A stretch of 39,472 bases of DNA, taken from Dysgonomonas sp. Marseille-P4677. Its GTDB lineage: Bacteria; Bacteroidota; Bacteroidia; Bacteroidales; Dysgonomonadaceae. Location of the stretch: assembly GCF_016652235.1 (NCBI RefSeq), contig NZ_JAEPKU010000025.1, positions 1 to 39,472 on the forward strand. Reading direction: 5' to 3'. Positions 1 to 8,800 of the stretch are shown piece by piece. The translations under genes were made by a program, and so were the position numbers. How positions within the stretch are numbered: position 1 is the stretch's first letter; each line of letters begins with the position of its first letter. The notes beneath the pieces were generated by a model, which made no database searches, was not told where the DNA came from, and was given only the letters and a program-made list of their open reading frames with translations.

Positions 1-55
1 GAGAGAGAGAGAGAGAGAGAGAGAGAGAGAGAGAGAGAGAGAGAGAGAGAGAGAG
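1..55. repeat. GA dinucleotide microsatellite upstream of susC-1
   Basis: An uninterrupted GA tract of at least 55 nt runs off the left edge of the window, so its full length is unknown. It ends 296 nt before the first susC start codon. A second tract of the same motif sits before the second susC gene. Tracts of this length are prone to slipped-strand length change in bacteria. Whether this one affects transcription is inference. Confidence 0.95.
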
Positions 56-139
56 CATATAACAAAAAATAACTGTTTTTTATCAGAACAGATAGTAAAA
101 AGAGTATCTGTAGCTGATTATTTCATGATAATAAAATTT

Positions 140-180
140 ACCCTGTTTCGGAGTATTAGAATACTTTGAGACAGGGTTTT
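140..180 (+). terminator. Intrinsic terminator-like hairpin between the GA tract and susC-1
   Basis: The arms ACCCTGT (140-146) and ACAGGGT (171-177) pair perfectly. The inner arms AGTATT (152-157) and AATACT (160-165) continue the stem through a wobble-rich middle. A T-run follows. It could end a transcript from the left of the window. Because an equivalent hairpin also lies between the second GA tract and susC-2, a leader or attenuator role is an alternative. Confidence 0.7.
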
Positions 181-289
181 TATATATCCTTAAAACCTGA
201 ATACCACTTTTTATTCATAATTATTAACTTATTAAACATTTTTAACCACATGAAGAGTACACTAATCAATTATTTCTAATGCCACGCAT

Positions 290-311
290 AATGAGGTCTG
301 GATACCTCATT
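290..311 (+). promoter_or_regulatory. Leader hairpin 40 nt upstream of the susC-1 ATG
   Basis: The perfect 8-bp arms AATGAGGT (290-297) and ACCTCATT (304-311) enclose a 6-nt loop. There is no U-tract, so it is not a terminator. A hairpin in the corresponding position (5763-5788) ends 41 nt before the susC-2 ATG. This suggests a structured 5' untranslated region that may affect translation or mRNA stability. Confidence 0.45.
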
Positions 312-351
312 AAAGAAAAATCATTATTTCAGTTAACTAAAAACACACATT

Positions 352-5585: not shown

Positions 5586-5654
5586 CTGAATATAATAAAA
5601 AAACAGATAATTTACCTAAAGGAATATTCTATATTCTTTTGGCTTTGCTTATTT

Positions 5655-5702
5655 AAAGGGAGATCCTGTATCTGATAATCAGATACAGGATCTCCCTTTT
5701 TG
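5655..5702 (+). terminator. Very strong terminator/attenuator-like hairpin before susC-2
   Basis: The arms at 5655-5675 and 5679-5699 pair perfectly over 21 bp (core GGGAGATCC...GGATCTCCC) around a 3-nt TAA loop. The 3' arm ends in a run of five T residues. It lies 69 nt after the GA tract and 130 nt before the susC-2 ATG. It has the form of an intrinsic terminator. Its position inside the leader suggests an attenuator, or the end of a small RNA that begins at or near the GA tract. Confidence 0.8.
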
Positions 5703-5762
5703 ATTTATAAACCTTTAAAACATAAGTCTATGTAAAAATCCAAACTGAATTTTCGTATCGCA

Positions 5763-5788
5763 GGAGATAAAATATATTAACAATCTCC
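5763..5788 (+). promoter_or_regulatory. Leader hairpin 41 nt upstream of the susC-2 ATG
   Basis: The 6-bp arms GGAGAT (5763-5768) and ATCTCC (5783-5788) flank an A+T-rich 14-nt loop. The stem alone is weak. Its position and the following CATTAA...AGTTAAC context match the leader hairpin of the first susC gene. Confidence 0.35.
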
Positions 5789-5829
5789 ATTAATAAAATT
5801 TTATAGTTAACAATAAATAAAAACATATT

Positions 5830-8800
5830 ATGAGAAAATTTGTAGACAAAATTTCAATATGCTACAACAAAAAACATGATAGGCGGATACTTTTTTTACT
5901 ATTCGCTTTACTGATGTTTCAATATTCTTCGGCTATAGTTACGGTAAATGAGAATTTAGATGTAAAAGAAATATTCCAGAATAGCACAACAATTAAAGGA
6001 ACAGTGAAGGATCAAACAGGAGAGCCTTTAGCTGGTGTTAGTGTCGTTCTAAAAGGTACAAGTCAGGGTACTATTACAGACCTTAACGGATCATATACTC
6101 TTTCAGTACCGAATGTTAATTCTACTATAGTATTTTCATTTATTGGATTCCATTCTCAAGAGATTGTCTTGAATGGAAAAACGACATTGGACGTCCTAAT
6201 GACTGAAGATGCAAAAATGTTAGATGATGTTGTTGTCGTAGGATACGGAACAATGCGTAAATCTGATGTAACGGGCTCCATATCTACAGCCAAGGGTAGT
6301 GATATTATAAAATCCCAGTCGTTCAATGCTCTTGACGGATTGAAGGGGAAAGCAGCAGGTGTAAATATTTTCTCTAATACAGGTCAGCCAGGTGGAGAAA
6401 TGCGTGTTATTATACGTGGTCTTTCCACAATCAATGCCTCTGCGAGCCCATTATACGTAGTCGATGGTGTGGTCATGAGAGATTTTCAGTTAGTAAATCC
6501 TAATGATATCGAATCGATTGAAGTATTGAAAGATGCTTCTTCTGCAGCTATCTATGGTGCTAGAGGTGCTAATGGTGTTATTTTAGTAACGACTAAACGC
6601 GGTACTGGCACAGGAAAGAAAGCTAGTATCTCTTATGATGGCTCCCTCTCAATTGGTACGATGGCTAGATACATGGATGTGATGGATTCTTACGAATGGA
6701 TGGATGCATTTAAACAAGGCTTGGAAAATGCGAATACATGGCAAGGCAGAAACTTCACCACAGACTTATCGCAAATATTCACAGATGAACGTTTGTTTAA
6801 TGCTGACGGTTCACCAAAGTATAATACAGACTGGCAAAGAGAAGCATCTCGTACAGCAGTCTCTCATAATCACCAGCTAAGCATCCAACGCAGTGGAGAA
6901 GCTTCTTCAATTGGTGCTTTTGTCAATTATACTGATCAACAGGGAATCTTACTTAACTCATATTTTAAACGTTTGAATGCTAAATTAGCCTATGACGACA
7001 AACCAACTAGTTGGTTATCGACCTCAGTTAATTTAATGGTAAACCATACCTGGGGTAACAGAACATCTGACAATCCCTATGGGCAGGGAGCTTTGCGTAC
7101 AATGGTGGAGCAATTACCATTTCTACCTGTTCAATTGGATGGTGAATATATGCAAACAAACTCTTTTAAAACAAGTAAAATATTAAGAGATAAAGATAAC
7201 CCCAATAGTGCAACACAAGGATTTAGCCCAGAAGGTGTAGGTAATCCTGTTGAACAGCTTACGCGGGTTCAAGCGATGCAGTATAGAACGAAAGTCTTTG
7301 GTAATGCAGCTTTGACTTTTCATCTAGCTCCTAATCTCTCTTTAAAGACACAGTTTGGTATCGATTATCAAAACAATCGTGACCGCAACTTCACTCCGGT
7401 TAAGCCACATGCAATAATTGGTTATTCTTCTGTAGGTGAAGCTTCTGCTACTAATTCAAATTCATTGTATTGGCAGGAAGAAACATATCTGAATTATAAT
7501 AAGAATTTCGACAAGCACTCTATCAACGCTATGGCTGGTATGTCATGGCAACAGTATGATTATACCAGCTTTAATGCTACTGGCAAGGAATTCACCGATG
7601 ATTTTTACGGTTATTATAATATGGGTGATGGAATTGCCCGTCCAAGTATTGGTACTGGCTATGACAAATGGACAATGAATTCATATTTCCTTCGTGCAGC
7701 ATATTCTTATGACAGTAAGTACATGGCTACTATAACAGGTCGTTACGATGGCTCATCTAAGTTTGGAGAAGACAATAAATACGCTGTTTTCCCTTCGGTT
7801 GGCTTAGGATGGATGGCTTCTAATGAAAACTTTTTGAAAGACAATCAGCTTATTAGTAAATTAAAACTGCATACTTCTTATGGGGTAACAGGTAATTCCG
7901 AGATCGGAACATTTAAATCTTTAGCTGTTGTTAGCCAATCCAAGACTATTATAGGTGATCAATTGAAAATTGTTTCTTATTTGGATAATATGCCTAATCC
8001 GAGTTTGAAATGGGAAAGAACAGGTCAGTGGGATATAGGTGCAGATCTGGGATTCTTTAATAATAGACTCAATCTGGAAGCTTCTTACTATTATAAAAAG
8101 ACAACAGACTTACTACTTGACCGTCCTGTACCTGAATCAACTGGTTACTCATCTATCTTGGACAATATAGGTGCAGTTTCGAATAGAGGTGTAGACCTTT
8201 TACTTACGGCTCATATTGTTGACAATCAAGACTTCCAATGGAGCTCTACCGTTAATTTAGCTTATAATAAAAATCGCGTGGAAAAACTGGATGAAGGAGC
8301 GTCAGTTGACCCTACCAGTGGTAAACGTCAAATAACTAAAGATGGTTTTGTGGGCTATGACATCCTGATTCGTGAAGGAGAAGAACTTTCTTCGTTTTAT
8401 GGATATAAACGAATTGGAATCTATGATGGTGTACCTTCTAACTGGGATCCGGAAACAATGAATATACCATCAACAATTGGAGAAAAGGTTACATCGAAGA
8501 ATCGTGAAATTATTGGTCATGGTTTACCTCGTTGGATGGGATCTTTCATCAATACATTCAATTATAAAGGATTCGACTTAACGCTGGACCTACAATTTAC
8601 ATGGGGTGTAGATGTTATGCAAGAGTTTTTTCATTCTACAGAAGCACGTTTCTTAACAAATGGTATCGATCGTCTTTACAAAGATGCATGGCATCCGACA
8701 TTGAATCCAGATGGTACAGCACAAGCGATACGTTTAAATAATTTTGGTATGGGAGCAAATAATCAAGCTGATGACACTTGGGTCGCCGATGGCTCTTATC

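Follow-up and report, generated by a model that had tools for sequence, protein, structure and literature searches.

A stretch of 39,472 nucleotides (nt) from the genome of Dysgonomonas sp. Marseille-P4677, referred to below as the window, carries two susC genes, each preceded by a tract of GA dinucleotides and a terminator-grade hairpin, and we propose that this cassette is quite probably a phase-variable leader-peptide attenuator. The proposal draws on sequence statistics, namely an open reading frame (ORF) and its frame through the tract, the pattern of stop codons on both sides of the tract, the hairpins, a bias in the placement of promoter motifs, and the spread of the cassette in the genus. 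From these we infer the following course of events in living cells. Transcription would begin upstream of the short leader ORF, and ribosomes trailing the polymerase would translate the GA tract as (Glu-Arg)n, so that slippage by one GA unit (2 nt) would change the reading frame downstream of it. A ribosome in an ON frame, of which there may be more than one, would enter the terminator stem and stop inside or beyond it; the hairpin could not form, and the resulting antitermination would allow read-through into susC. In an OFF frame, of which there may likewise be more than one, translation would halt only a few nt past the tract, leaving the hairpin free to form, and transcription would end. 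An earlier sequence-only reading of the window had missed the ORF around the tract, whose frame would decide the access of the ribosome to the hairpin.

The two cassettes of the window

The features of the two cassettes and of the genes behind them, all on the + strand, are as follows.

1..55 (+), cassette 1 GA tract, truncated at the contig edge; the leader start lies outside the window
56..169 (+), single frame open from tract 1 into the hairpin, with TGA 167-169 in the 3' arm
140..177 (+), cassette 1 hairpin of terminator grade (17 base pairs (bp), loop of 4, T tail)
352..3399 (+), susC homologue 1 (Pfam Plug, CarbopepD_reg)
3347..5113 (+), susD homologue 1 (longest ORF; the true start is probably later)
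5280..5312 (+), hairpin resembling a terminator, assigned to the operon before it
5460..5675 (+), cassette 2 leader ORF (71 residues with the tract length as assembled, MLNLISYFTIKAFIFSSENLDLTSILL(ER)n..., TGA 5673-5675)
5508..5540 (+), nucleotide element that cassettes across the genus have in common
5540..5585 (+), cassette 2 GA tract of 46 nt (GAG AGA = Glu-Arg)
5587..5589 (+), TGA reached first with one extra GA unit; predicted OFF frame
5654..5656 (+), TAA at the hairpin foot, reached first with one GA unit fewer; probably still ON
5655..5699 (+), terminator-grade hairpin of cassette 2 (21 bp, T tail)
5830..9045 (+), susC homologue 2 (Pfam Plug, CarbopepD_reg)
9071..10702 (+), susD homologue 2

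Both GA tracts noticed in the sequence-only reading, at 1-55 with an open edge and at 5540-5585, were confirmed and are 100% pure. The two stems that it had called terminator-like were borne out by folding, which gave -25.4 kcal/mol (z -7.0) for the hairpin at 140-177 and -36.2 kcal/mol (z -9.4) for that at 5655-5699, with 0 of 200 shuffled sequences as good in either case. The susC start codons, expected 130-174 nt after each hairpin, were indeed located at distances of 174 nt (ATG 352) and 130 nt (ATG 5830), and a terminator-like hairpin was found at 5280-5312, where the end of the preceding operon had been placed. A plain consensus scan of positions 1-18000 returned 7 terminator-like sites against 9.6 in shuffled sequences and 71 promoter-like sites against 72.7; since these counts lie near those of the shuffles, such a scan is uninformative alone, and what stands out is the stem length together with the folding energy.

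Behind tract 1, the two other frames meet stops at 60-62 and 70-72. In cassette 2, the leader ATG at 5460 lies 81 nt upstream of the tract, and the assembled 46-nt tract leads to the TGA at 5673-5675 within the stem-loop, a state that is ON by the model. The frame ending at TAA 5654-5656 is probably ON as well, because in the pil1 system of Streptococcus gallolyticus a leader that ends 4 bp before the terminator is ON (Danne et al. 2014, PMC3894217).

A predicted leader ORF with a conserved element

Pattern searches for the element and the tract were carried out in 25 Dysgonomonas genomes, sampled as one genome per species, and loci were counted as independent after coarse clustering. The strict pattern of element plus tract was present in 13 of the 25 genomes. 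When as many as 3 mismatches were allowed, the element was present in 17; the reversed-pattern control gave 0 in both searches. Tract starts (TAGAGA... of at least 9 units) numbered 106 in 17 genomes, against 10 for the reversed control, which corresponds to tract ends before T; all but two of the 106 (G013:C312 and G014:C325, left out) lay in the analysed stretches or at contig ends of the genome of the window. From 116 tract rows of at least 5 units, 104 loci in 16 genomes with both element and tract were kept, allowing up to 6 substitutions in the element, and 7 of these have tracts shorter than 16 nt. The 12 rows dropped for want of the element at that limit comprised, by eye, continuations of interrupted tracts (L093, L173, L228), pieces at N gaps (L169, L194), shifted or diverged elements (L077, L188, L209, L238) and rows with no recognisable element (L174, L229, L236). 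The notion of a repeated regulatory cassette, formed in the sequence-only reading from two copies, is supported. Two unusual tracts were seen in G019, one of 312 nt (L191) and one with a second long Glu-Arg run upstream of the element (L197).

An in-frame ATG before any stop was found at 96 of the 104 loci, whereas the other two frames gave 0 and 3, the element itself holding stops in them. Among 100 loci, codons 2-13, which precede the element, contained 1 stop per 1200 codons when read in the ORF frame; the two alternative frames contained 96 and 78, and just upstream of the leader ATG the three frames did not differ (83, 104 and 89 stops). In-frame ATGs, together with stop avoidance that begins at the ATG, thus identify the tract as coding sequence. 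The position of the ATG was also recurrent, being -81 in 50 of the 100 loci, -78 in 14, -90 in 11 and -87 in 7, and the pre-tract peptide follows the pattern M..QN.T....IFSxENLxVSxILL. The element is conserved at the nucleotide level too, with the G of a TTG codon kept in 98 of 100 loci and the third-position T of three codons in 87-97 of 100.

Behind the tract, the peptides of unrelated loci share no common sequence as judged by eye. The possibility that the ORF is the N-terminus of one conserved protein was ruled out, since the post-tract sequence is unrelated between non-orthologous loci (by eye).

Open frames between tract and hairpin

The hairpin test covered the 89 of 104 loci with at least 350 nt downstream and no N in the first 250, and in 58 of them the hairpin plus T run scored higher than the 99th percentile of shuffled sequences. 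Where the hairpin lay within 150 nt of the tract, at least one frame was open from tract to hairpin in 50 of 51 loci, against a mean of 25.9 and a maximum of 35 in 2000 shuffles; the reverse complement gave 33, and segments of the same length behind the hairpin gave 23. Removal of redundancy reduced 93 loci to 71 clusters, of which 37 hairpin representatives and 29 others were tested and 5 left out. Every one of the 37 non-redundant hairpin loci had at least one such open frame (1000 shuffles: mean 19.2, max 26). In the closed frames, the median distance from the tract to the stop was 7 nt and that from the stop to the hairpin 63 nt; in many loci the leader stops within the terminator stem. 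These statistics of ORF, frame and hairpin support a leader combined with attenuation, which the sequence-only reading had named as one option among several.

At the assembled tract lengths, the model predicts 34 of the 51 hairpin loci to be ON and 17 OFF, and in G019, a genome whose 5.2 Mb form a single contig, 6 of the 12 loci scored to be ON; these counts are indicative only, as tract lengths from short-read assemblies are doubtful. One locus, L202, was scored OFF only because its hairpin (23.5) falls just under the cut-off (23.7). Related loci in genome G015 differ in tract length (49 versus 47 nt, flank identity 93% and 89%), with the same doubt attached to short-read lengths.

Leaders that run to the next gene

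A second class comprises loci that have no strong hairpin within 150 nt. In 18 of its 29 non-redundant members, a frame stayed free of stops until at most 50 nt from the next ATG, compared with 1.2 (at most 4) in shuffled sequences. A leader stop within 25 nt of the gene ATG was observed at 18 loci of the whole set (12 of the second class and 6 of the hairpin class), and at L171, L190, L200, L230, L231 and L237 it overlaps the gene ATG by one base step. The leader frames of L191 and L173 contain no stop across the fetched stretch, and that of L208 is open for 1688 nt, through the gene start. For such leaders, the frame switch could act via translational coupling or Rho polarity.

Promoter motifs and points against attenuation

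The Bacteroides promoter motif TAnnTTTG, as defined with its -33/-7 layout in PMC7366714, was found in the 110 nt before the leader ATG at 26 of 64 non-redundant loci (5.4 in shuffled sequences), and between hairpin and gene at 2 of 35 (shuffled 1.7). The bipartite form TTTG-15..23-TAnnTT behaved alike, with 22 of 64 before the leader ATG (shuffled 5.5) and 0 of 35 between hairpin and gene (shuffled 1.1). This distribution favours a single putative promoter upstream of the leader, with none downstream of the terminator.

Several observations weigh against attenuation by the leader. The exact TAnnTTTG motif is absent from 178-351, 5310-5459 and 5700-5829 of the window, which includes the 150 nt before the leader ATG. 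A hairpin above the cut-off was missing from 31 of the 89 loci, in 11 of the 29 non-redundant second-class loci no frame reaches the gene, and at the assembled lengths just 8 of 36 second-class loci are in the ON frame. No hairpin locus had all three frames open (0 of 51), and since 960 of 2000 shuffles likewise gave 0, the presence of an OFF frame is no signal in itself. Variation in tract length was seen between related loci only, the sample holding one genome per species. Finally, the nucleotide-level conservation of the element indicates that it may serve something besides coding.

Competing explanations

The leader ORF could instead be an independent small-protein gene with its own terminator, followed by susC with its own promoter, in which case slippage would vary the small protein only. 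On paper, the ORF, the terminator and the gene form three distinct units, the pre-tract peptide pattern recurs, and the window shows no exact promoter motif on either side. Promoter motifs are nevertheless enriched before the ORF and not between hairpin and gene, the post-tract peptide has no common sequence (by eye) and yet is open up to the hairpin, many leaders stop inside the terminator stem, and those of the second class continue to the next gene. We therefore regard this explanation as unlikely.

Very improbable, in our view, is a slippage-variable promoter or operator composed of the GA tract and the element, with the ORF incidental; the variable promoter was among the options named in the sequence-only reading and is not supported as its main idea. 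The tract does adjoin the element at a fixed distance, and third codon positions are included in the conservation of the latter. The tract lies inside an ORF, however, whose avoidance of stops begins at the ATG and not before it, and the frame remains open behind the tract. Moreover, the TTTG and TRTTTTR blocks of the element are 13 nt apart, in contrast to the -33/-7 layout described for Bacteroides (PMC7366714). The element was accordingly rejected as a promoter after the stop-frame test of the ORF.

We give very little credence to a third explanation, in which the leader is the source of a small RNA that acts in trans and has its 3' end at the terminator, like FopS and GibS of Bacteroides. 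The short GA-containing RNA suggested in the sequence-only reading is not supported as a main idea. Premature termination would yield a 5' RNA of ~250 nt, and FopS provides a precedent for action on susC translation in B. thetaiotaomicron (PMC11697453). A search of window positions 1-6000 at the Rfam gathering score gave 0 matches to known RNA families, RNAalifold on 69 pre-tract sequences gave no common RNA structure, and the hairpins and post-tract sequences differ among loci; stop avoidance would also be left unexplained. An RNA of the FopS/GibS type was rejected on account of its different architecture and the lack of an Rfam match, although the element could still be the target of some trans factor.

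Chance or an assembly artefact, that is, a microsatellite spread with repeated sequence and devoid of any frame function, is barely credible: tract lengths of 55 and probably 63-64 nt do resemble assembler word sizes, and cassettes with a common element could spread by recombination, but the frame statistics hold on both sides of the tract, unrelated hairpins occupy the same place, 15 tracts occur in the single-contig genome G019, and the reversed-pattern controls gave 0 in the strict and 3-mismatch element searches.

Genes behind the cassettes and taxonomic spread

The association with susC made in the sequence-only reading proved real and was found not to be exclusive. Among 88 first genes behind cassettes (at least 150 codons, first 330 residues scanned), 43 matched TonB Plug, while 26 carried V[TSN][IV]G, mostly VTIG, near the N-terminus and represent another exported family. 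Further matches were 5 to Fib_succ_major and 2 to sigma-70 regions. At L155 (G001) and L172 (G006), the first gene appears from its sequence to encode a member of the sigma-70 family (locus assignment by eye), and some cassettes may thus switch a regulator.

Up to 15 tracts occur per genome, this number being reached in G019, and one Dysgonomonas genome, G002, gave no match by the strict, the 3-mismatch or the tract-start pattern. At the level of the family, the strict pattern was found in 16 of 101 genomes, 14 of them in Dysgonomonas and one in each of two other genera. In one of these (g4), leader ATG, tract, hairpin (by eye) and a SusC-like gene stand in cassette order; in the other (g3), the tract precedes a SusC-like gene, and there is no in-frame leader ATG and an N gap is present. 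An even sample of 393 genomes across the order contained 2 with a match, both Dysgonomonas.

GA tracts and contig ends in the genome of the window

The window is contig C159 from its first base, in a draft assembly of 4.73 Mb and 278 contigs. A genome-wide search for GA tracts, as proposed along with the sequence-only reading, gave more than chance: the 8 tracts of at least 8 units (C22, C37, C102, C159 twice, C212, C230 and C275) explain all 127 overlapping 16-mer matches, and all 4 with downstream sequence (C22, C159 twice and C230) precede a strong hairpin and then a SusC/SusD operon, with one NHL/TIG lipoprotein gene intervening in C230. The hairpins behind these four tracts are unrelated to each other in sequence. 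Upstream of the tracts, TCTGAAAATTTG, TTA and a TRTTTTRYTAGAGAG block were recognised at fixed spacing, with a diverged version at C212. The C212 locus (L045, first 60 bases) shows a 17-nt GA tract, a leader-like ORF and a flanking direct repeat of ~30 bp at the contig end.

Six of the eight tracts lie within 10 nt of a contig end, and that of C212 lies 31 nt from one. The overlap between C37 and C22 is exactly 55 nt, as is the length of each piece at the C159 start, the C230 start and the C102 end. Owing to these recurring 55-nt pieces, the assembly seems to break in tracts that exceed its word size, and tract 1 is probably longer than 55 nt, since position 1 is a contig edge and 55 nt is the overlap of two other contigs. 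If the cassettes are interpreted correctly, their tracts explain why the assembly breaks in front of these operons. The pairing of C37 with C22 is supported by locus L076, which matches the upstream sequence of the former and the downstream sequence of the latter; if the two are neighbours, a 49-nt tract would lead by arithmetic to a stop at C22:86-88, before the hairpin starting near 145, and the locus would be OFF.

Comparison with known systems

The closest parallel is pil1 of S. gallolyticus, where leaders that are longer extend to the terminator and increase transcription, deletion of the terminator locks expression high, loss of the leader start makes it low, and chloramphenicol brings variants down to the wild-type level; expression in a triple-stop mutant slightly exceeded expectation (Danne et al. 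2014, PMC3894217). Both pil1 and pil3 likewise have simple repeats within a leader ORF, a change in repeat number that shifts the frame, and a surface-protein operon downstream; their short form stops before the premature terminator and their longer forms at or in it, an anatomy that the Dysgonomonas cassette shares as judged from its sequence (PMC3894217). The mechanism was proven there with repeat variants, chloramphenicol, and start-codon and terminator mutants (PMC3894217). The systems differ in repeat unit (a GCAGA pentanucleotide versus the GA dinucleotide), in scale (two loci of one Firmicutes species versus ~100 loci of a Bacteroidota genus) and in output (pili versus SusC/D and other exported proteins), and, unlike pil1/pil3, the Dysgonomonas cassettes have a conserved nucleotide element before the tract and a second class that seems to reach the next gene without an intrinsic terminator. 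We accordingly suggest that the cassette would work like pil1 by analogy; the two differ in repeat unit and phylum, and common descent is not claimed.

In Bacteroides, surface and SusC-type genes phase-vary by recombinase-driven DNA inversion. This is the same random switching of surface genes within the same order, but it proceeds by inversion and not by repeat slippage as proposed for Dysgonomonas. FopS, GibS and RbpB of B. thetaiotaomicron share with the cassette the control of susC at the RNA level, in Bacteroidales and with RNAs that have an intrinsic-terminator end, and FopS RNAs regulate susC translation; FopS and GibS are, however, trans-encoded RNAs with a seed and, as described, have no translated repeat leader (PMC11697453, PMC7366714). 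Variable short repeats also precede surface-protein genes in meningococcal nadA and Mycoplasma gallisepticum vlhA, where they are situated in the promoter region and affect the initiation of transcription, whereas the repeats of Dysgonomonas would act on the leader frame.

A literature search pairing Dysgonomonas with phase variation returned no such paper, and among the papers listed by further literature searches none named such a GA leader cassette, most subscription papers and preprints being outside the coverage of either. If the attenuator model is correct, SusC/D importers of a Bacteroidota genus would be under repeat-slippage phase variation via attenuation, beside the DNA inversions of Bacteroides; the logic of pil1, described for two loci in a single streptococcus, would have emerged in a phylum unrelated to it and expanded to at least a dozen loci per genome; and the ON/OFF states of dozens of operons would be predictable from sequence. 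A wider version, which we put forward tentatively and rate slightly below an even chance, is that of a genus-wide contingency system, in which up to ~15 cassettes per genome would switch independently and generate cell-specific combinations of importers and surface proteins. The stop-free and otherwise unconstrained leaders of ~60-190 codons, in the class without a strong nearby terminator, would then be kept open only for ribosomes to reach the next gene, and the element would perhaps be a handle for one trans-acting factor that tunes all cassettes on top of the random switch.

Other features of the window

Behind both SusC/SusD pairs and on the same strand, a BSP-family peptidase and two GH92 glycosidases are encoded at 10990-17005, which together with the pairs suggests a polysaccharide utilisation locus for mannose-containing glycans. 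Further downstream, a degenerate tandem repeat with 15- and 30-nt units was observed at 20720-20809, inside a minus-strand ORF of 897 codons.

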